DNA of 55,013 bases from Candidatus Gastranaerophilales bacterium (GTDB lineage Bacteria > Cyanobacteriota > Vampirovibrionia > Gastranaerophilales > Gastranaerophilaceae): contig CALUVW010000013.1 of NCBI GenBank assembly GCA_944324315.1, positions 1 through 55,013 of the forward strand, read 5' to 3'. The notes under the pieces were generated by a model. It worked only from the letters and a program-made list of their open reading frames with translations, was not told the DNA's origin and did not search any database. Within the stretch, counting starts at the first letter, position 1, and every line of letters begins with the position of its first letter. A program made the position numbers and the translations under genes. Positions 364 to 53,000 of the stretch are shown in pieces.

Positions 364-1337
364 TTATTTTAAAAATCCATTCCAATAGGTACCGCCGGTA
401 CCGTCAGGGTTTATGTTTGCAACCGCATAATACGTACAACCAAAACCCAAGTAGTCAGAACCGTGAGCGGCTTCTATAAATGAACATTTGTTAATATTGC
501 CATTATCAACATAAGGCTGAATTGAACCATTTTTGTTTATAGTAAAAACGTGCAAATCATAACCGAGACGGTTAGGTCCTTTTCCTGTCCCATTTATATC
601 ATAATAATATCTATCCGAAAAATAATTCAAACCGCCAACCCACACAGTACTACCGTCAGCCAGTTGAATTATCTTTTTCAGATATGCATCCGCATCTATA
701 TGGGCATTATTTTTACCATCAAGAGTTTTATAATACTGACTTTGATCAATCCAACGCTCGCCATAGGTACATTCATAATAATGCCCGTCACAAATATGTG
801 AGCCTTTAGTGAACCTAACAAAATCTTCAACCTGCTTAATTGCCGATGCCTCATCTCTTATTGTATCAGGGTATGATGCAAGTCCAGCCTGATAAGACTC
901 CCAAGGATCTATATCATTGGCTTTCATCATCAAATTAACATTCTGAATTACGGAGTATGCTTTCTTAAACTGACTTTCTAAAGCCTTCATTTGATATTTA
1001 TGTATCAAAACCGGCATTGTCATAGCGGCAACAACTCCGATTATGCCGAGTGTTATAAGAACTTCTGCCAAAGTAAATGCTGCTCGACGAATATTGTCAG
1101 AGTGGATTACGTGCATAACACCTTCAGCGGGAGTAAATGCATATAATTTCTTTGTATTTTCAAAATTGTGATATAACATATCACTATTATAACATATTTT
1201 TTTATCTTTACAACCCCTTAAAAACCTTGATGGAAGCTGAAAATCGCCCCCCCCCCGAGTACTGCATCAATAGTAATATTCAGGGAATTTTCTTTGGGTA
1301 ATTGCATTGATAAACGCTCAGCTCCAAAATTTTTCAT
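364..1337 (-). CDS. Phase-variable prepilin-like protein 1 (frame broken at G10)
   Basis: Type IV prepilin-like protein, class III signal RRAA^FTLAE with the conserved Glu at mature position 5 and a hydrophobic helix; the mature part is about 235 residues. A second frame starts at ATG 1337 behind AGGAGTGA and runs 27 codons into a G10 run (1247-1256). With 10 G it stops soon after; with 11 G it continues without a stop through about 60 codons into the prepilin domain, giving a leader of about 87 residues. The mature part has a D-x-NG-x4-PN-x2-G-x-D motif, as in several minor pilins, and Cys pairs. A partial repeat of the cleavage region (YAFTPAEG) lies 20 residues upstream of the real one. 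An internal promoter-like site could allow a shorter product from ATG 1179. Secretion or pilus assembly is inferred from the family; no assembly ATPase is in the window. Confidence 0.8.
1186..1195 (-). promoter_or_regulatory. Possible internal promoter (extended -10) before ATG 1179
   Basis: Read on the - strand, TATGTTATAAT ends 6 bases before ATG 1179. This would give a leaderless transcript that starts downstream of the G10 run, so prepilin 1 could be made regardless of run length. Similar TATGTTATA sequences precede other prepilin starts. No clear -35 was found. Confidence 0.3.
1235..1258 (+). repeat. AGCT-8nt-C10-GA element (prepilin 1)
   Basis: AGCT at 1235-1238, GAAAATCG, then C10 at 1247-1256 and GA. 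It lies inside the coding region of the leftward prepilin gene, where it reads as G10 and decides the frame. Confidence 0.85.
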
Positions 1338-2407: not shown

Positions 2408-3423
2408 TTAATAAGATATTTTTCTCGGATAATCTTTAGGGATTTTCCAGCCGTTATATTGAATTAAAAGAGTACAAAAATATCCCTCATTCTCACAATT
2501 AGTATATAAAGATTCTTTGGTTCCATTCCAGTTCCAAAAATAAGATTCCAATCCTTTACCTTCTTTATCATCCCAACCAGGAGTATACATAAACGCAAAT
2601 GCATTTCGTCCGAGTTTATCCGGATAAATCTTGCCCCAGGAATTTTCTTCTATATTTTGGTAAACTTTAGGAATAAAATAATAATCGTTTGAGGAGTAAT
2701 ACAATAAACCGCTCCCATCAGGAAAAACTACCAGCCCTCTATTACCAGCATTTTCAATACTTGTATACTTCAAATACTTTGCCAGATAAGTGTCAAACCA
2801 AATTTTAAATTCTGCATAATTTGAAAAAGTTTGTTTCCAATTAGCCTTATCACCAAATTCTGATTCAGCCATAATAAGAGCCTGATTATAAGATGAATAG
2901 AATTTTTTCAATCTTACTTCAACTTCCTGATTTCGATGTTTTTGAATTAATACAGGCATTGTCATAGCGGCAACAACACCGATAATCCCGAGGGTGATGA
3001 GAACTTCTGCCAAAGTAAATGCAGCTCGACGAATATTATTCGAGGGATCTACGTGCTTTACCCCCTCCTTGATTAGGGAGGGGGTAGGGGGGAACGTAGC
3101 CGTTCCATCCAACATATTAAGATTGCATCTTTTTTTAGGATAAGGATTTTTGCTTATTACATCGTTACCCAACATCTTATCCTTCCATAATAAGGGAAGG
3201 AAGATTGGAGTTAATAGATTGAAATCATATCTTCTACTACCTTCTATATTTGATTTGCATCTATGCCTCTTTGCTTCTTCGCATCTAATTATGAGATCCC
3301 GAAACAAGTTCGGGATGACATTTGGTAAACTTGCTTGACTTCTTGACCTCCTGAATTCCTGACCTCTAATTAGCTCGGAATCGCCCCCCCCCCGAAGGTT
3401 ACAGTTCTTAATAATTCTCTCAT
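2408..3423 (-). CDS. Phase-variable prepilin-like protein 2 (frame broken at G10)
   Basis: Prepilin-like protein with class III cleavage RRAA^FTLAEVLITLGIIGVV. A strong ribosome binding site (AGGAGCAAAAAGC) precedes ATG 3423; ten codons (MRELLRTVTF) lead into G10 (3384-3393). With 10 G the frame ends at TAA after GGGAIPS. With 11 G it is open through a very long linker into the prepilin, giving a leader of about 135 residues. The linker is largely built from repeats that also occur between genes: the VIPNLFRDL palindrome, a REEAKRH-type repeat shared with 47134-47219, and two PSLIKEG-type palindromes. The mature part is about 204 residues and ends in the family motif GWKIPKDYP, after a Cys pair. 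It lies downstream of flgC on the same strand but has its own promoter region. The out-of-frame state may be real (phase OFF) or an assembly error. Confidence 0.8.
3061..3084. repeat. Palindromic repeat (PSLIKEG type) inside prepilin 2 linker
   Basis: CCCCCTCC-TTGATTA-GGGAGGGGG, an imperfect palindrome. Related copies occur at 3181-3200, 29698-29720 and 29773-29792. Here it is translated in the long linker. Confidence 0.6.
3181..3200. repeat. Palindromic repeat (CCTTCC...GGAAGG)
   Basis: CCTTCC-ATAATAAGGGAAGG, a shorter relative of the repeat at 3061-3084 and a near match to 29773-29792. Confidence 0.5.
3295..3319. repeat. Dispersed palindrome, GATCCCGAAACAAGTTCGGGATGAC
   Basis: One of about nine copies of a palindrome with the core C(C/T)GAAA-A-TTCAGGATGAC. 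This copy is inside the linker of prepilin 2 and reads VIPNLFRDL on the - strand. It is almost identical to the copy at 6090-6114. Confidence 0.75.
3372..3395 (+). repeat. AGCT-8nt-C10-GA element (prepilin 2)
   Basis: AGCT, CGGAATCG, C10 at 3384-3393, GA. It sits 10 codons into the leftward prepilin 2 gene, where it reads as G10. Confidence 0.85.
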
Positions 3424-5888: not shown

Positions 5889-6089
5889 TACTACCTCTTT
5901 TTCTAATACAATCGGATATGTTCATGTATAATTCAACAAATCTAAAAAAAATCATCTGTTTGTATTAGTCAATAAGTCTTTAATGATAATTTCAAATAAG
6001 TCAAATATTATGAGACTTATATAGAAAATTCCACTGATAATGGCTAAAATTGTCACCCTAAACTTGTTTCAGGTTCTTGTCAGTGGTAA

Positions 6090-6114
6090 GATCCCGAAAC
6101 AAGTTCGGGATGAC
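6090..6114. repeat. Dispersed palindrome, GATCCCGAAACAAGTTCGGGATGAC
   Basis: Same 25-base sequence as 3295-3319; the two copies share flanking sequence over about 125 bases. Confidence 0.75.
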
Positions 6115-6166
6115 ATTTGGTAAACTTGCTTGACTTCTTGACCTCCGGAATTCCTGACCTCTAATT

Positions 6167-6190
6167 AGCTCGGAATCGCCCCCCCCCCGA
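6167..6190 (+). repeat. AGCT-8nt-C10-GA element (orphan leader)
   Basis: AGCT, CGGAATCG, C10 at 6179-6188, GA. It is nearly identical to the element at 3372-3395. Confidence 0.85.
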
Positions 6191-6290
6191 AGGTTACTGT
6201 TCTTAACAATTCTCTCATATTCTTACTCCTTTAATTAATGAAATTACTATTATATAATAACATATTATAACTATTTTTTCAATAGTCGCA

Positions 6291-7497: not shown

Positions 7498-8865
7498 ATG
7501 CAAGAGACAGGTAATACGATTTTTAACTTATTTATAATTGCTTTCTTATTATTTTCAAACGGTTTTTTTGTCGCTTCAGAATTTGCAATGGTAAAGGTTA
7601 GAAAAACCCGCATAGAACAGCTTGTAAATGAGGGAAACTTTAATGCCAAAATTGCTCTTGAAGCTTTAAAAGATTTGGACAAATTCATAGCTGCTGTTCA
7701 ACTCGGTGTAACAATCTCAAGTATCGGATTAGGATGGGTTGGGGAAGGAACACTTGCTCATATTATTGAACCCGTGTTTGCGTTTTTACCGGGAATAGGG
7801 AAAAATATCGCAACACATACAGCATCTGTTTCAATAGCATTTGCACTTATTACATTTTTCCATGTTGTCCTCGGAGAACTCATCCCAAAATCAATTGCAC
7901 TTGAATATACTGAAAAGACTGCTCTGTGGGTTGCAAGACCAATGCAGTTTTTAACATTCATATTTAATCCGTTTATCTGGCTTTTAAACGGGTTCGGCAA
8001 TTTTGTATTAAAAGCAATGAATATTCCTCATTCTCATAAGGGATCGCTTGTACATTCAACTGAAGAACTTGACATGCTTGTAAATGCAAGTTATGACGGC
8101 GGAGTTTTAAACGAAACAGAAAAAGATATGCTCCATAATGTGTTTAAATTTTCTGACTTAACAGCAAAACAGGTTATGGTGCCACGTACTGATATGGTTT
8201 GTATTCCTGTTGACATGCCTATGGAAGAATTAAACAAACTTGCGGCAGAAAATCAGTATACCAGATACCCTGTATATGAAGAAGATATTGATCATATTAT
8301 AGGTCTTGTCCACGTAAAAGATTTATATTCTCTATCTATAAAAGATGAAGTTTGTCCGATATCAAAAATTTTACGGGAAGTATTGCTTGTTCCGGAAACA
8401 ATCACAATGGACAATCTTGTTTTGGAATTTAAAAAACGCAAAGGCCAGATGGCAATTGTTGTTGATGAATTCGGAGGAACATCAGGACTTGTTACACTGG
8501 AAGATGTTATAGAAGAGATATTCGGCGATGTTCAGGATGAATTTGACGAAGAAGAGGAAGAAGAAAGCGAAATTAAAGAAATTGCTCCGAATACTTATCT
8601 TGCAAATGCGATTACAAGATTGGATGAGTTTGCTGAATTCTTTAACATTGATGAAAAAGAAATTGACGACGAAGATATTGATACAATCGGCGGCCTTGTT
8701 GTAAAACAGCTCGGGCGTCTGGCTGAAGTTAACGACACCGTTAAACTTCATAATTTAACGTTTATTGTAAAAGAAGTAGACGGCGCAAGAATAACAAGGC
8801 TTGAAATTATAAAATCAGAGGATGAACCTGCTGATGTCGAAAAAGAGGAGGATAAAAATGTCTAA
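7498..8865 (+). CDS. CNNM/CorC-type membrane protein with CBS pair (TlyC/YfjD family)
   Basis: 455 residues. The N-terminal DUF21 (CNNM) transmembrane domain covers about 1-190 with four hydrophobic segments (for example LFIIAFLLFSNGFFVASEF). It is followed by two CBS repeats (about 215-340: VMVPRTDMVCI and GQMAIVVDEFGGTSGLVTLED) and the CorC/HlyC C-terminal domain (about 360-440). An acidic stretch, DEEEEEESE, links them. The family is tied to magnesium/cobalt efflux; older names call it hemolysin C. Translation likely starts at ATG 7498. The stop overlaps the ATG of prepilin 3 by 8 bases, so the two may be translationally coupled. Confidence 0.88.
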   Translation: MQETGNTIFNLFIIAFLLFSNGFFVASEFAMVKVRKTRIEQLVNEGNFNAKIALEALKDLDKFIAAVQLGVTISSIGLGWVGEGTLAHIIEPVFAFLPGIGKNIATHTASVSIAFALITFFHVVLGELIPKSIALEYTEKTALWVARPMQFLTFIFNPFIWLLNGFGNFVLKAMNIPHSHKGSLVHSTEELDMLVNASYDGGVLNETEKDMLHNVFKFSDLTAKQVMVPRTDMVCIPVDMPMEELNKLAAENQYTRYPVYEEDIDHIIGLVHVKDLYSLSIKDEVCPISKILREVLLVPETITMDNLVLEFKKRKGQMAIVVDEFGGTSGLVTLEDVIEEIFGDVQDEFDEEEEEESEIKEIAPNTYLANAITRLDEFAEFFNIDEKEIDDEDIDTIGGLVVKQLGRLAEVNDTVKLHNLTFIVKEVDGARITRLEIIKSEDEPADVEKEEDKNV

Positions 8866-9599
8866 ACTGGATAAGAAGCTGAACCCCCCCCCCCGAAGCT
8901 CTGCTTTTAATCAAAAGAATTAAGGCTTTCACCTTAGCTGAAATGTTAATTACACTTGGAATTATAGGAGTTATTGCTGCAATTACTTTACCAATTGTAA
9001 TTACTAATTATCAAAAACAAGAAACAGTTAACAGATTAAAAAAAATATATTCAACAATTAATCAGGCACTTCTAATATCCCAATCAGAAAACGGTAATTT
9101 TACAGAATGGGGAATTGCTTCAGAAGAAGCTGACTGGGACAAATATCAGGATAAACTTTCTAGCATTGTTAAGCAAAACATAATTCCTTACCTTAAGATA
9201 TTAAAAGACTGTGAGTATGACAAGTGTAAAGATGCTGCAACCACAACATTTAAAGATGGTACAATAAGCAAATGGTATGGTACTCGTACCCATTATGTCG
9301 TCTATCTAACTGACGGCTCTAGAATACTATTTTTTATCGATAACTCTAATAACGCTGACGGAACTAACATGTGGCATGACCTTGCAATGATGCTGGATAT
9401 AAATGGGGATAGCAAACCAAACCTTATGGGCAGAGATGTTTTCTATTTATTTTTACATTCGAATAATAATAAAGTTAATATGTTCGGAATAGGGAACTCA
9501 AGAGAAACACTAAAGTCGAAATGTGAAAGCTATGGAAATGTTTGCGGAGCTCTAATACAAACAGACGGATGGCAAATAAAAGATGATTACCCGTGGTAA
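8858..9599 (+). CDS. Phase-variable prepilin-like protein 3 (frame broken at C11)
   Basis: A ribosome binding site (GAGGAGGATAAAA) and ATG 8858 lie within the end of the CBS protein gene. The reading MSKLDKKLN enters a run of 11 C (8884-8894) and then stops at TAA 8921. With 10 C (or 13) it continues as PPPEALLLIKRIKA^FTLAEMLITLGII, a 23-residue leader, and on to the stop at 9599. The mature part is about 215 residues, with LDINGDSKPN-x2-G-x-D and the terminal GWQIKDDYPW motif shared with prepilins 2, 4, 6 and 8. It is the only one of the eight needing one base fewer rather than one more. No start codon with a ribosome site exists after the run, so expression depends on the run. Confidence 0.82.
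8877..8896 (+). repeat. AGCT-C11-GA element (prepilin 3)
   Basis: AGCT, GAA, C11 at 8884-8894, GA. The spacer is 3 bases, not 8, so this is the most diverged of the nine and the only run of 11. Confidence 0.75.
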
Positions 9600-13137: not shown

Positions 13138-13871
13138 TTACCTGTAACGTACCTTAACCGGATAATCATCAGGAATTTTCCAGCCGTTCATCTGAATCCA
13201 CCTTGAGCAATAAGGTCTCCACCCCTGTTTTTTGTTACATCCATATCCGCTGTTAGTTTTTAAATTATCCATAGAGCCGTCCCAGTTGAAGGCAAAAGTT
13301 TCGAAACCTTTACTATCTGCACTCATAAAAAATATCCACGCACACCGCCCACTGTAATTATCTATGTTATTTTTTCCAAATTCTATGCATTTTTCCGGAT
13401 CTCCCGGGAAAAATATCCAGTCTCTATTATTTCCATTTGTTTTGAAAGCACTGCCGTCACTCAGATAATATGTTGTTATACCATCAATTTGCTTGGTTTT
13501 TATAATATTTAAGTGTGGTGCCAGATACTTTTCAAACCACTCCTTTTTAAGAGCATCAGTATTGTCGGCAGAACTCGAAATATTTTCAAACCACAGACTT
13601 TTATCTCCATATTCAAGTTCTGCCATCTTAATTGCCTGATTCATAGACGAGTAAAATTTCTGCAAACGGGTAACAACTACCTGTTTATCGTAATTGTAAA
13701 TGAGTGTTGGTAATGTCATTGCAGCAACTACACCAATAATACCTAAAGTAATCAAAACTTCTGCTAATGTAAATGCACATGATTTTTTTTGAGTTTGACA
13801 ACCCCATAAATCCCGAAGGAAGCTTAAAGTCGCCCCCCCCCCGACTTCATAATTCTTAATACTTCTCTCAT
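13138..13871 (-). CDS. Phase-variable prepilin-like protein 4 (frame broken at G10)
   Basis: AGGAGCAAGAAT and ATG 13871 start MREVLRIMK, entering G10 (13833-13842). With 10 G the frame ends at TAA two codons past the run. With 11 G it reads on with a short linker (SGGGATLSFLRDLWGCQTQ) to the class III site SCA^FTLAEVLITLGIIGVV, a leader of about 33 residues. The run is flanked symmetrically by AAGTCG and CGACTT. The mature part is about 210 residues, Cys-rich at the end, closing with GWKIPDDYP. It is convergent with tmk. This locus has the shortest linker among the leftward genes, so it shows most plainly that the frame is meant to be continuous. Confidence 0.82.
13821..13844 (+). repeat. AGCT-8nt-C10-GA element (prepilin 4)
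   Basis: AGCT, TAAAGTCG, C10 at 13833-13842, GA. It reads as G10 in the leftward gene. Confidence 0.85.
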
Positions 13872-28975: not shown

Positions 28976-29982
28976 TTATTTATACATATCTGAAAATTCT
29001 ATTTTTTCATCATCATTATTACTTAAACAATACATTATATCTTTATCAAAATAATATCCGCCGCTCTCACTTCTTAATATAGAGAAGCTAAAAAGATCTT
29101 TTCCTCGTTCATTAGGTCCCTTCTTACCGTTTATATCGACCGCAAATATTGCCTCACGACCTGCTCCGTATGATATTAATAATGAGCCGTCAGCCAGAAC
29201 ATAGGTAAATGAAAAATTATTCATATCATTTTCGCTATAACCGTAACATGCTCCGGAATGATATGATTTATATTCCGGAATGCAACCATTATCATAAGAA
29301 TGACTTGGACAATATTTTACATATTTCATTTTTTCTGCCAACTTTTTATATAATGCAATACATTCAGTAGTACCAACACCCCCGCCGGTAACATCATCAT
29401 TTCCGCGATAACAAGCTACATCACCGCCATTATCCAATACTACAAATTGTAATGCCTGCGCCATAGTAGAATATGTTTTCTTAAATTGAGCTTTTAATTG
29501 CTGTTCCTGATATTTTGCTATAAGTGACGGAATAGTCAAAGCCGCAACTACACCGATTATTCCAAGGGTAATAAGAACTTCTGCCAAAGTAAAAGCGGCT
29601 CGACGAATATTCTGAGAGTGGGCTGCGTGCGCAGCACCTTCGGCTAGAGTGAATGCGGCTTTGCGTTTTATTTTAAGTGAATGGATAGTATTTAATTCCC
29701 CCGCCCTTATTAGGGAGGGGTTAGGGGTGGGTGTTAACTGGGATAATTTTAAATCGTTACCCATCCTCTTATCCTTCCCTAATAAGGGAAGGAAGGTGTT
29801 TACGTTACAGACTTTGCTTCTATGCCTCTTTGCTTCTTTGCATCTAATTACTAGATCCTGAAACAAGTTCAGGATGACATTTGGTAAACTTGATTGACTT
29901 CTTGACCTCCAAACCTCTGAACCTCCGGTTAGCTCAAAATCGCCCCCCCCCCGAGATTCCTAAACAAACCAAAATTTTTCAT
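28976..29982 (-). CDS. Phase-variable prepilin-like protein 5 (frame broken at G10)
   Basis: A GAGGTATTAGAAT site and ATG 29982 start MKNFGLFRNL, then G10 (29943-29952). With 10 G a stop follows after GGGAILS. With 11 G it is open for about 115 codons to the class III site RRAA^FTLAEVLITLGIIGVV. The linker (leader about 130 residues) closely parallels that of prepilin 2: VILNLFQDL palindrome, CKEAKRHR repeat, FLPLLGKDKRMGND, and a PSLIRAGE palindrome. Twenty residues before the true cleavage region there is a second AAFTLAEGAAHAAHS, so the cleavage segment is duplicated. The mature part is about 205 residues with VDINGKKGPN-x2-G-x-D. It belongs with prepilins 1 and 7 in the class without a GW..DYP ending. 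Confidence 0.8.
29698..29720. repeat. Palindromic repeat (PSLIRAGE type) in prepilin 5 linker
   Basis: CCCCGCCCTTATTAGGGAGGGG, related to 3061-3084. Confidence 0.55.
29773..29792. repeat. Palindrome CCTTCCCTAATAAGGGAAGG in prepilin 5 linker
   Basis: A near-perfect palindrome, related to 3181-3200. It is translated within the linker as part of FLPLLGKD. Confidence 0.55.
29854..29878. repeat. Dispersed palindrome in prepilin 5 linker
   Basis: GATCCTGAAACAAGTTCAGGATGAC, in the same linker position as the copy at 3295-3319 in prepilin 2. Confidence 0.75.
29931..29954 (+). repeat. AGCT-8nt-C10-GA element (prepilin 5)
   Basis: AGCT, CAAAATCG, C10 at 29943-29952, GA. The 24 bases are identical to the element at 37066-37089 although the two genes point in opposite directions. 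Confidence 0.88.
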
Positions 29983-37052: not shown

Positions 37053-37843
37053 ATGATATTAGAAAAGCTCAAAATCGCCCCCCCCCCGACGAACGCAATT
37101 GCTTAACCCGCCGGATTATAGCTTCCAGGAATTTTACAGTGATATTACAAGGTTTTACATTAGCGGAACTTTTAATAACTCTTGGAATTATTGGTATTAT
37201 AGCAGCACTTACCCTGCCGGCCATTATTGGACATTACAAAAAACAGGAAATTGCATCCAAGCTTAAAAAATTTTCATCTACAATACAAAACGCATTTACA
37301 ATGGCATCAGCTCAATATGGGGACATGTCTAATTGGGATTATCCAAACAAACAAAATAATGCAGAACAAATAAATGAATTTGTAAGTACTTATTTATATC
37401 CTTTTTTAACAGGAATCAAAGAATGCAAAGCCGGGGACAAAACTTGTCAAAAATTGTTAGAGTTAATAAATGGTGAAACAGGATCAGGAGGAAGTTACAC
37501 GATTAATACTGCTTATGTATTTATGGATGGAGGATGTTTTTCAGTATTAACAGGCGGTACAACCCAGAATAGCCTTATGATGCATATAACTTATGATTAT
37601 AACTGTGAAAAAAAACCTAATAAATTTGATAAAGATGTTTTTGCATTTATTATACGTATTAATAAAGCCTCAAATACATACAAATTCAAAGCCGGCTCTG
37701 CAAGGACATTTAGCCTTACAAAACGCAACGACTTATTGGAAGCTTGTAAAAAGCATGAGCAAACACATTACCAAGGCGGATGTTCCGCTTTAATTGAGTT
37801 TGACGGCTGGGAAATTAAGGATGATTATCCGTGGCGACTGTAA
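37053..37843 (+). CDS. Phase-variable prepilin-like protein 6 (frame broken at C10)
   Basis: ATG 37053 (weak ribosome site, AAAGAGAATAAC) starts MILEKLKIA and enters C10 (37078-37087). With 10 C the frame ends at TAA 37104 after PPPTNAIA. With 11 C it continues PPPDERNCLTRR... to the class III site LQG^FTLAELLITLGIIGII, a leader of about 34 residues. The mature part is about 230 residues with Cys pairs and the terminal GWEIKDDYPW. A GTG at 37139, with AGGA 9 bases before it, could start a short-leader version (MILQG^F) independent of the run, so control may be partial here. The element around the run is identical to that of prepilin 5 on the opposite strand. Confidence 0.78.
37066..37089 (+). 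repeat. AGCT-8nt-C10-GA element (prepilin 6)
   Basis: AGCT, CAAAATCG, C10 at 37078-37087, GA. Here the gene is on the + strand, so the run is read as C (Pro codons). Confidence 0.88.
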
Positions 37844-40484: not shown

Positions 40485-41188
40485 ATGAGAATACGAGAAG
40501 CTTTTAGAGTGCCCCCCCCCCGCAAAACACTTGTAAATTAAAGGGTTTCACCCTCGCAGAAGTTTTAATTACTCTTGGTATAATAGGTGTAGTTGCGGCT
40601 ATGACGATGCCTGTTATTATAAGTAAATACCAGACAATGGTCATTAAAAATCAGTTCAAAAAATCTTATTCTGTGATATCTAATGCTTTTAACCTTGCGA
40701 TACAAGAAATGGGTGAAGGGGTTGACTGTACAAATAAAGATAATTCGACAACAACTAGTTCAATATCCGAATGTAATACATTGTGGCAAAATTATTTTTT
40801 GAAAAACTTACAAGTCGCTAAATATTGTGAATCAAAAGCTTTCGAAAACGGCTGTGTACCAGACTATAAAGAGGAAGATTTTGTCAATGGCGCAGGATGC
40901 GGCGGTTTCACCGCTACTCAGATAAAAGAACACCAGATGGCCGCAGTTTTAAGCGACGGAACTATAGTATTTCCCTACGGATGGAACGGACGCTCGTTTG
41001 CTGCCTTAGGTTTTGATGTAAATGGTTTTAAAGGTCCGAATAAAGGCGGACATGACGTATTTTCTCTGGGTATTGCAAATAAAGGGAATATACCTGTTTT
41101 AGGAGCATGGAGGGATGGTTACTTATCTTTTTGTATGCCATTTGCAGAAGATCCATTATTCTGGTATCTAAAAGACGTTTTATATTAA
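40485..41188 (+). CDS. Phase-variable prepilin-like protein 7 (frame broken at C10)
   Basis: AAAGGAGTTGAAAT and ATG 40485 start MRIREAFRV, entering C10 (40512-40521). With 10 C it ends at TAA 40539. With 11 C it reads PPPPQNTCKLKG^FTLAEVLITLGIIGVVAA, a 21-residue leader, the most conventional prepilin leader of the set. No ATG, GTG or TTG exists in the prepilin frame between the run and the cleavage site, so normal translation of a secreted form must cross the run in frame. The mature part is about 213 residues with FDVNGFKGPN-x2-G-x-D and Cys pairs; it groups with prepilins 1 and 5. It is followed by a strong terminator. Confidence 0.85.
40499..40523 (+). repeat. AGCT-9nt-C10 element (prepilin 7)
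   Basis: AGCT, TTTAGAGTG, C10 at 40512-40521, then GC instead of GA. A diverged member of the family. Confidence 0.75.
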
Positions 41189-43815: not shown

Positions 43816-44618
43816 TTACCAGGGATAATCATCCTTAATTTGCCATCCATCATACTGTATCAAAGCACCGCAGTAGCGCCCCAAACCCTTCTTGTTACAA
43901 CCGCCTGTTGAGTTTAAAAGATCATCTCTGGTAGTCCAATCCCCCGATAAGCCCCAAAAATTTGATTTATTTATACTCTCAGAATTACTGAAATAATATC
44001 CAAAAACATCTTTACCAAGCATATTCGGATTTTTATTTCCGTTTATATCAACATAAATAATAACATCACGTACTAATGTACCATTATTATTAAGCGCTAT
44101 TAAAATAATAGAACCATCCAGTAAATATACAGCATAAAACATAGAAACACTAAATACTTGTTTATTAAGGTATTTATACGATGGTAATTTATTACATTTA
44201 ACACCACAATCTTCCTCTACATTTAAGTATGGTAAAATATATGTTTTTACAAAATTTATTAAAGATACATTATAATTTGAACCATCGCCATAATCAGAAA
44301 CTGGACCAAAATTAAAATTCCATGTTGAAGCATCCCCATTAGCATTTTGTGACATAACAAACATCTGAGAAATTGTTGTGTAACTCTTTTTTAATTTATT
44401 AACTGTTACATTTTTTTGATATTTGATAACAAGAGCAGGTATTGTTATAGCAGCAACAACTCCTATAATCCCTAATGTAATCAAAACTTCTGATAATGTA
44501 AATCCCCAAAGTGCATTTTGTAAAAGCTCAAAATGATTATTTAATCTTTTAAATACAGGAAAAGAAGCTGCTAAATCGCCCCCCCCCCGAGAGTTACATT
44601 TCTTAATGTTTCTTCCAT
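43816..44618 (-). CDS. Phase-variable prepilin-like protein 8 (frame broken at G10)
   Basis: AAAAGGAGTGGAACGT and ATG 44618 start MEETLRNVTL, then G10 (44579-44588). With 10 G the frame stops at once (GGGAI then TAG). With 11 G it continues GGGGDLAASFPVFKRLNNHF... to the class III site LWG^FTLSEVLITLGIIGVV, a leader of about 39 residues. Ser replaces Ala next to the conserved Glu5. The mature part is about 227 residues, with VDINGNKNPN-x2-G-x-D and the terminal GWQIKDDYPW. It lies between kdsA and rplA on the same strand, but a terminator separates it from rplA, so it has its own promoter. Confidence 0.83.
44566..44590 (+). repeat. AGCT-9nt-C10-GA element (prepilin 8)
   Basis: AGCT, GCTAAATCG, C10 at 44579-44588, GA. 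It reads as G10 in the leftward gene. Confidence 0.85.
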
Positions 44619-47130: not shown

Positions 47131-47140
47131 ATTTTAGATG

Positions 47141-47219
47141 CTAAGATGAATAGATGCAAAGACGCAAAGCTGTTTTAAGGTAAAAAACTTCGCTTCTTTG
47201 CCTCTTAGCTTCTTTGCAT
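47141..47219. repeat. Imperfect inverted repeat between tRNA-Trp and rpmG
   Basis: GATGCAAAGACGCAAAGC on one side faces GCTTCTTTGCCTCTTAGC with TTCTTTGCATC on the other. The right arm matches sequence in the linkers of prepilins 2 and 5 (3258-3290 and 29813-29849), where it is translated as C-K/E-EAKRHR. Confidence 0.6.
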
Positions 47220-47387
47220 CTACTTAGTTTCCTTGTGGTTGGTGTGTTTTTTGCAAGTCGGGCAATATTTGCTCAACTCAAGTCTTTCTTTAATATTTTT
47301 CTTATTTTTTGTTGTTGTGTAGTTTCTTTCTTTGCAGTCTTCACATGCAAGAACTACCATTCTGTCATTTTTTCCTTTGATACCCAT
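47220..47387 (-). CDS. rpmG: 50S ribosomal protein L33
   Basis: 55 residues. [20 protein letters not shown] and [15 protein letters not shown] with two CxxC pairs identify the zinc-binding form of L33. AAGGAAATAAAACA lies upstream of ATG 47387. Just upstream of tRNA-Trp and secE, as in many bacteria. Confidence 0.95.
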
Positions 47388-50075: not shown

Positions 50076-53000
50076 ATGTTATTAGAAGGTGATTTATCCA
50101 CTAACAAGACGGATTTTCTAATTAATGCCTATACAAATTTGCTTAATTCCGGCATAAAATCTTCTGAAATTTTAGTGCTTGTTCAAAATTCTAATCTTAA
50201 ACAAAACTTCATAAATAAAACACTCGAAAAATTAAAAATTAATTCTATTGAAAAATTAGAAGTACATTCTTTTTTCTCACTGGTTTTTAACACTATTACC
50301 GATAACTGGGCTTTAGTTGAAAACATAAATCCTTTTGACAATTCTGTAATACTACCAAACCTTGCTGGACTTGAGGTTTCTCAATTTATTCTGAAAGATA
50401 TTTTAAAAGAAATTCCGTTCAAAGGCTATAATTCTAAAAAATCCCTTTTGCATCAAATTTTCAGAAGATATTCCTTAATCGTTCAGAACAATTTAACTGA
50501 TGAAGAAGTAGAATGGCGCTCACGCGTCTTAGGAGAAAGTTTTGCCGAAGATGCAAAATCTGCATTAAAAAAGTTGCTTTCCAAAACTCTTGCTCTTAGA
50601 GACTTTGATTATTTGAGACAGACACTTGTTTTCAATTATATTTATAAAAATTCTGACTATTTCAAAAATATCAAATACTTGATTTTAGACGACGGAGATG
50701 AAATTACACCTGTTTGTTTTGATTTTATATCATATCTTGCGCCTCAATTACAAGATATTTTTGTTGCGTTTGATGAAAAAGGTGCAAGCCGCGCAGGTTA
50801 TCTGAGTGCAGACAGAACCGCAGTATGGAAATTTGAAGACTTGTTCAACCAAAAAGCTGAAAAACTTATATCAAACAATCCACTTTCTGATGATGCAGAA
50901 ACTTTATTTTCAAATATCACGAAAGATAAAAATGAAACGCTTGAACATTTTTCGATGCAATCACCTTCCAAAAGAGCATCAATGGTTGACATCGCCATAA
51001 AACAAATTCAAGAACTTTTAAACAAAAATGTTTTACCTTATGAAATTTCAATCATAACTCCGGTGATTGATGATATGCTCAAATTTTCTCTAAAGGAAAA
51101 TATTCACACAAACCTTTTATTTTTATCAGGAAGCGAAAAATTAATTCAAAACAGACTTGTAAAATCTATACTTACTATTTTAAAACTGAACAGCAAAATG
51201 CCTGTAAGTGAATTTGATATGCGTGTAGTGCTTTCGGAATTTTTAGGTATCCCGATAAAATACTGCAAAGATATTCTTGAAACTTTTGCCCAAAATAAAG
51301 AATTAATTGAATATGAATTTAAACTTGAAGAATACAGTGAAAAATACAGAAAATTTCTTGAAATTCTTGCGAAATTATCTCAAAGCAAGACAAAACTTTC
51401 TGAAAAAGTTTATGATATTTACTATGAACTTGCAGAATTTTATTACGTCAACACTGTAGAATTGAACAAATTTAATTTTTTTATCAAACAGCTTCAGGAT
51501 TTTGAAAATATTTTCGGGAAAGATTTTGAATCTCGTCAGGATGAAATTATCAATCAGATTGAAAATTCAATAATTGCGGAAAATCCTTATTCAACACTTG
51601 AAATATCAGAGAATGACTTGATAATTTCAACACCACAAAAAATCATTGATAATCAGATTAAAACAAAATACCAAATATGGCTTGATATTTCAAGTGACGA
51701 ATGGATTAAAAGCGATACAGGACCGTTATATAATGCATGGGTTTTCCAGCGCGGCTGGGCTAAAGATGAATTCACTATTGATGACAATATTGAACTTTCA
51801 AAAGAAAAAACTGCAAGGATTTTAAGGAAACTGACGCTTTGTGCATCTGAACATATTTATACGTATTCAAGCCTTTTTGACGGCAACGGTACAGAAAATT
51901 TCGGCGGGATTGAGGAGTATATTAAAGTAAAAGAGATTCTGAAACAAGTTCAGGATGACGAGAAACATTTTAATATAATCCCGCGAGATGATCAAAAACC
52001 TGTTCTTGAATATGAACAAGGGAATATGGCGATTTCTGCGGTTCCGGGTGCAGGCAAAACAACTATTTTACTTGCGCTGATTTTAAAACTTCTTGATAAA
52101 GGAGTTAATCCAGAAAACATATTTGTTATGACTTATATGGAAAGTGCCGCCAGAAACTTCCGCGACCGAATAAAAAACATAAGACAAAATTCATCGCAGC
52201 TTCCAAATATCAGCACTATTCATGGTCTTGCTCTTAGAATTTTAAAAGAAAACGGAAATTTTGAAAGACTCGGGCTTTCTTCTGACTTTGAAATTTGCGA
52301 CGATACTCAACGCTCAAGAATTGTTAGAGAAATATCAAACAAATTAAAACTTAAAAAAAATGAAACCGAAGAATTTGATAGAGGTATCTCAATATTTAAA
52401 ATTGGCAAAGGCCAATTTAACAATTCAATGGACAAAAAACTTGAAAAATTTCAGATATTTTTTGAAGAATATCAACGGATACTAAAAGAATCAAATTTAA
52501 TTGATTATGATGATATGCTTACATCTTCTGTTAAACTTCTTGAAGACAATGCCGATATCCGTGCATACTATCAGGACATCTGCCATTATATTATTGAAGA
52601 CGAGGCACAGGACAGCTCGTCAATCCAGCAAAAACTAATTAATCTTTTGAGCGCAAAACACAAAAATCTTATAAGATGCGGTGACATAAATCAGGCAATT
52701 ACCACAACTTTTTCAAATGCGGATGTTGAAGGATTCAGAAAATTTATTTCAGAAAGCAATAACGTCAGTATGGACTGTTCACAGCGCTGTACAAAAAAAG
52801 TCTGGACTCTTGCTAATAATCTTGTAAAATGGGCTGACACACAAGAAGAAACTAAAAACGCGTTTTTTGAAATTTTTATGCAACCCGTTGAAGGCAGAAA
52901 CCCTGTATCTGAAAATGCATTGCATTCAATTATTTTTGAAAAGCCTCTTGAAGAAAGAAATTATATCTTAAAAGAAATTAAATCAGCACTGAAAAAAGAC

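Follow-up and report, generated by a model that had tools for sequence, protein, structure and literature searches.

Repeat-built leaders of type IV prepilins behind a C/G run that likely sets their frame in a Candidatus Gastranaerophilales genome

We analyzed a window, by which we mean the whole stretch of 55,013 nucleotides under study (contig C13), from a Candidatus Gastranaerophilales genome of 1.88 Mb that is assembled in 49 contigs and is 99.5% complete. The window holds eight prepilin genes with an FTLAE motif, each preceded by ten or eleven C on the plus strand. Leader lengths were counted as if this tract joined the upstream ATG to the prepilin frame and comprise the residues before the F of FTLAE. 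The features are listed below by position and strand.

1078-1337, minus strand: start of prepilin 1, with G10 tract (1247-1256) and a leader of 87 residues if joined
2408-3019, minus strand: mature pilin of prepilin 2, beginning FTLAE, with a DUF6613 body
3020-3383, minus strand: repeat-built leader of prepilin 2, open in the prepilin frame and predicted mostly disordered; 135 residues if joined
3061-3090, minus strand: palindrome read PSLIKEG, prepilin 2 leader
3157-3203, minus strand: FLPLL-KDK-GND palindrome read FLPLLWKDKMLGND, prepilin 2 leader
3237-3291, minus strand: C-EAKRHR segment read IRCEEAKRHRCK, prepilin 2 leader, common to 29796-29850 and 47172-47226
3293-3319, minus strand: palindrome read VIPNLFRDL, prepilin 2 leader
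3384-3393, minus strand: prepilin 2 tract G10 (C10 on the plus strand) in the motif AGCTCGGAATCG-C10-GA; a run of 11 or 8 would join the frames
3394-3423, minus strand: start of prepilin 2 upstream of the tract, ATG at 3421-3423, first codons MRELLRTVTF, AGGAG ribosome-binding site
6046-6218, minus strand: orphan 5' end with ATG (6216-6218), G10 tract (6179-6188) and the start of a leader, 98% identical to 3294-3423
8858-8927, plus strand: start of prepilin 3, with C11 tract (8884-8894) and a short leader of 23 residues if joined
13774-13871, minus strand: start of prepilin 4, with G10 tract (13833-13842) and a leader of 33 residues if joined
29594-29982, minus strand: start of prepilin 5, with G10 tract (29943-29952), a repeat-built leader of 130 residues if joined and a duplicated FTLAE
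37053-37153, plus strand: start of prepilin 6, with C10 tract (37078-37087) and a leader of 34 residues if joined
40485-40546, plus strand: start of prepilin 7, with C10 tract (40512-40521) and a leader of 21 residues if joined
44503-44618, minus strand: start of prepilin 8, with G10 tract (44579-44588) and a leader of 39 residues if joined
47136-47226, minus strand: non-leader copy of the C-EAKRHR segment
51933-51959, plus strand: palindrome copy within a variable helicase linker, with in-frame reading EILKQVQDD

The orphan 5' end at 6046-6218 adjoins flagellar genes and has no pilin behind it.

As in class III type IV prepilins, the proteins have the cleavage motif (G/A)-F-T-L-x-E and a hydrophobic helix, and the genome has a prepilin peptidase (one gene, with one PF01478 match above the cut-off), by which the leaders would be cleaved. 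Scanning the eight window prepilins with PF07963 (N_methyl) placed four above the curated cut-off and three below it, with one not reported, and DUF6613 was above the cut-off in two of the eight. In the predicted model of prepilin 2, residues 99-151 form a confident helix, a sheet is also present, and the pilin part is confident from about F97; the leader is mostly predicted to be disordered, with residues 15-73 below pLDDT 50. The top structural matches of this model, with low Z scores, were the type IV pilins PAK (1oqw, Z 4.3) and FimA (3sok, Z 4.1), both from residue 97.

We searched the genome for the prepilin N-terminus and found 122 matches, corresponding to about 120 FTLAE prepilin genes; the stretches around all 122 were read. 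A C/G run of 9-12 bases lies upstream of 90 of these 122 matches and is exactly 10 bases long in 78 of the 90, though all genomes used here are assemblies, mostly from metagenomes, and these 10-base lengths are consensus values. Relatives found by protein search were mostly other Candidatus Gastranaerophilales assemblies, along with one entered as Fusobacterium sp. CAG:439. Across the genome, joined leaders (n = 86) range from 20 to 182 residues with a median of 78.5, and 31 of the 86 exceed 100 residues. The median thus lies outside the roughly 5-30 residues usual for prepilins, whose other features are present. Class III leaders are known as short, and even a 26-residue leader has been termed unusually long for an archaellin (PMC12448462); in relatives, by contrast, the open stretches before FTLAE extend further still, to 235 codons (L279, G008) and 322 codons (L242, G019). 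In the window, the range given by the initial annotation, from 21 residues in prepilin 7 to 130-135 in prepilins 5 and 2, agrees with our measurements of 21, 130 and 135 if joined. The two long stretches in relatives, L242 and L279, are packed with different dispersed repeats.

The stretch between tract and FTLAE is open in the prepilin frame in 87 of the 90 tract-bearing genes. Among leaders of at least 100 nt (n = 63), 60 are open in that frame and none in either other frame. Over all 90 leaders, the prepilin frame contains 8 stops in 5717 codons, against 369 predicted from base composition and 468 and 511 in the other two frames. In two of the three genes with a broken leader, the mature pilin part is interrupted by stops as well. 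The possibility, raised at the outset, that the linker is untranslated is difficult to reconcile with these counts.

The tract nevertheless separates leader and start. As assembled, it joins start to prepilin in none of the 86 genes whose start was identified and whose leader is open; 76 of them are off by one step and 10 by the other. In the related genome G007, all 40 of the 40 open tract genes read have a run of ten and are off by one common step. In nearly all genes, a run of 8 or 11 would bring start and prepilin into one frame; in prepilin 2, one added G would be enough. Four genes could instead be joined by a run of 10 (window 8884-8894; G000 C46:3312, C11:15285 and C2:80513), and since their runs are 9 or 11, the in-frame state is absent from these as well. 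The initial annotation had described the leaders as joined in frame, and as far as the open prepilin frame is concerned this holds; it overlooked, however, that with the tract lengths of the assembly no window leader shares a frame with its start, so that a one-base change in the tract is needed. Because no tract-bearing gene is in frame as assembled, translation of this genome's own long leaders is not directly visible. Both joining and non-joining lengths do occur, as 10 is out of frame in most genes and relatives contain intact in-frame genes with tracts of 8 or 11: L250, L277, L278, L273 and L152 (three in G018, one in G015, and L152). In two further genomes, G021 and G002, the C10 motif is almost absent and prepilin reading frames are continuous; some of these include leaders of about 100 residues that are rich in repeats.

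This arrangement, in which a tract inside the reading frame sets the frame between an upstream ATG with a Shine-Dalgarno (SD)-like sequence and an open prepilin frame downstream, is that of a homopolymer phase-variable gene. Given that 8 or 11 would join most genes and that five relatives with such lengths are intact, the tract is likely a phase-variation switch set by run length, with most genes off. Known examples of such switching include pilC of Neisseria and the poly-G genes of Campylobacter. As in those genes, a G/C run lies close to the start of a surface-protein gene, within the part for the signal or leader, and its length sets the frame. The present system differs in scale, with about 90 paralogues at once, nearly all of length 10 and none in frame here, and in that the run sits within a longer motif of fixed strand relative to replication.

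The main alternative is that the run of ten causes programmed -1 frameshifting or transcriptional slippage and that the frames are joined in this way, not by DNA slippage; the leader would then be translated all the same. We consider this unlikely, at perhaps one chance in a handful. The uniformity of the run speaks for it: freely slipping tracts should spread in length and leave about a third of the genes in frame, and yet 78 of 90 genes here and every one of the 40 open tract genes read in G007 have a run of 10, with the same-step offset throughout G007 and in 76 of 86 genes here. It does not fit the relatives' in-frame genes with 8 or 11, nor the ten genes off by the other step. Moreover, some mRNAs carry the run as G and others as C, and the motif tracks the DNA strand and not the mRNA.

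On the C strand, the motif around the run reads roughly AGCTYnRRAWYG-C10-GA and is similar whichever way the genes run. All nine C runs of the window are on the plus strand, with genes in both directions (1247-1256, 3384-3393, 6179-6188, 8884-8894, 13833-13842, 29943-29952, 37078-37087, 40512-40521 and 44579-44588). We judged replication polarity from the sign of GC skew of contigs and from strand changes along the G007 contigs. Among contigs with runs on one strand only, 31 of 32 (counted by eye) match the sign of GC skew, with the C run on the C-rich strand; contig C7 has one run on each strand. G007, which has large contigs, contains 69 sites with a single strand change in contig 1 and another in contig 2, which is the pattern that an origin and a terminus would give. 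By these measures, the C run appears to keep one strand relative to replication whatever the direction of the gene, both here and in G007, which was unexpected.

If the switch reading is right, translation would begin upstream of the tract, and an SD-like sequence indeed precedes that start in 80 of 86 genes. Alternatively, a site within the leader, such as the KDKRMGND ATG, could serve as the start, leaving the tract-proximal part untranslated. An in-frame ATG with a preceding SD-like sequence lies inside 33 of the 86 leaders, and some pilins could therefore also start there. In those same 33 genes, however, the prepilin frame has no stop in the 1945 codons between the tract and the last such ATG, where the other frames have 165 and 200. 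A further 23 genes have no in-frame start codon anywhere between tract and FTLAE, and none in the prepilin frame is found in that interval of prepilin 7. On this evidence, internal starts may be present but do not account for the open frame, and we regard them as an improbable general explanation. No 19-residue window above 1.6 was found when prepilin-frame leaders were scanned for hydrophobic segments, and one of the other frames likewise had none.

We next consider substitutions between close paralogues. In leaders, 106 of 349 are synonymous (30%, where a neutral model gives 28%), and the same comparison over the initial 150 nt of the pilin gives 606 of 796 (76%). Changes to or from a stop were observed once in leaders, against 12.3 expected. 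These statistics overstate the number of events, since paralogues share history and are not independent. Net leader length after the tract varies from about 20 to 490 nt, and almost all leaders fall into one class modulo three relative to the start. An insertion-length test proposed with the initial annotation asked whether inserts respect the reading frame. Gaps of at least 24 nt between close leader pairs measured 24, 24, 24, 51, 51, 54, 63, 87, 87 and 87 nt, so that all of these module-sized gaps are multiples of three; gaps whose length is not such a multiple were of 1, 5, 8 and, in a single case, 16 nt. This analysis was limited to close pairs, and since control sets gave no qualifying gaps, the comparison stands without a control. 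The substitutions and gaps indicate that leader residues drift near-neutrally while stops and frame changes are removed. A kept frame with drifting residues is what a peptide that is synthesized and then discarded should show, and the open frame fits such a translated, discarded leader as well; the suggestion that the leader may tolerate growth is thereby strengthened.

A frame might also be kept because the released leader peptide has a function of its own as a signal, chaperone or regulator. Some segments do recur across many leaders. That amino-acid change is near neutral speaks against such a function, as do the strong differences in sequence and length between the leaders of related species and the fact that leaders down to 20 residues serve the same kind of pilin; we find this very unlikely.

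All of the repeats named in the initial annotation are present in the leader of prepilin 2, and copies occur outside prepilin genes; the C-EAKRHR segment, described as shared with 47141-47219, was found at 47136-47226. Leader segments match 52 non-leader places in the 566 kb read. Although these 52 places, and a main palindrome that is free of stops in three to five of six frames, are what one would expect if the leaders were ordinary intergenic repeat sequence, open by chance or through stop-free repeats, this same DNA has 8 stops in the prepilin frame and 468 and 511 in the other two, and stop changes are rarer than neutral, so that the frame test already contradicts this idea, to which we give almost no weight.

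The main palindrome has 37 leader copies in the genome, 35 of them in the same orientation and frame and mostly 66 or 72 nt after the run, which points to inheritance with the gene family rather than to 35 insertions. Six leaders of other species carry it the opposite way round, again in an open frame (LKQVQDD and variants), which indicates more than one insertion in the genus. The copy in the helicase linker (51933-51959) recurs in this gene in G008 and, in altered form, in G003; other species have a different linker there. Duplicated FTLAE cleavage sites are a second source of leader growth, one that the initial annotation missed. An older FTL motif lies upstream of the current one in 8 of 82 leaders here and in 10 of 34 elsewhere; in prepilin 1, for example, a fossil cleavage site YA/FTPAE precedes the current AA/FTLAE (...KKLYA/FTPAEGVMHVIHSDNIRRAA/FTLAE). 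L250 of G018, whose mature pilin is 79% identical to that of prepilin 2, has a G8 run that joins its ATG to the prepilin frame, and its 50-residue leader contains none of these repeats; in prepilin 2, its window orthologue, the leader is 135 residues long if joined and the run is ten. The initial interpretation, in which repeat insertion kept the frame, is thus partly supported: the frame was kept, but most modules were copied with the gene family instead of being inserted repeatedly within this genome.

We propose that these leaders genuinely extend the N-terminus of type IV prepilins under a length switch, are cut off, evolve near-neutrally and collect in-frame repeats; we put the probability of this reading at about 0.84. 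A leader would be made only when the C/G run is of a length that puts upstream ATG and prepilin in one frame, which is 8 or 11 for nearly all genes, and the run of 10 found in most assembled genes would be the off state. The leader would remain on the cytoplasmic side, with the prepilin peptidase cutting before the F of FTLAE. Since it is cut off, its amino-acid sequence would be nearly free to drift, and selection would act solely against stops and frame changes. Palindromes and duplicated cleavage-site segments landing in the open frame would be kept because this stretch is neutral, and would then be copied along with the prepilin genes. That switching is reversible, and that events took this order, we infer.

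A broader and more tentative proposal, which we hold at somewhat worse than even odds, is that the replication-oriented motif AGCTYnRRAWYG-C10-GA keeps some 90 prepilin genes of each genome off by default at a tract of ten. A rare one-base change would turn on single genes, each cell would show few of a large pilin repertoire, and the discarded leaders would act as neutral reservoirs of repeats constrained in frame only. About a hundred pilus-protein genes per genome in the genus, with leaders that reach about 180 residues and are longer in related species, suggest a large family of switchable surface proteins. The prepilin genes of these uncultured gut bacteria look like an unusually large family of this kind, kept off in one frame by a motif tied to the replication strand. 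The leaders would represent a natural coding sequence in which readability (frame and stops) is selected while residues are nearly free, and they make it possible to ask how mobile repeats turn into protein.

The closest precedent for the repeats is the Rickettsia palindromic element (RPE; Ogata 2000, 2002), a class of small palindromes found between genes and readable in frame inside protein genes (PMC10969869). Similarly, the palindromes here are dispersed between genes (52 places) and lie in frame within open reading frames, in leaders and in one helicase linker. Unlike RPEs, which are about 150 bp long and occur in many unrelated genes, they are modules of about 25-60 nt in one cleaved segment of one gene family, with one gene beyond the prepilins in the window, and most copies were inherited with that family. 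They also resemble REP and other short palindromic repeats in being dispersed palindromes with many intergenic copies, but differ in that they would be translated as part of a protein leader. We searched the literature on these bacteria together with phase variation, homopolymers or pilins and found nothing on this system. Palindromes within proteins and homopolymer switching are known kinds; their combination, the scale and the strand polarity are undescribed in the literature searched.

Two further loci stood out among the genes read. L075 and L076 (G000 C2, about 93.6-109.9 kb) are a prepilin pair repeated about 11 kb apart with equal leader lengths and tract contexts, probably as a tandem duplication or an assembly effect. 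L041 (G000 C1:57352) has a run of 11 ahead of another FTLAE-type gene (AFTLAEMMVVLL), whose sequence past FTLAE is unlike that of the other prepilins read here.
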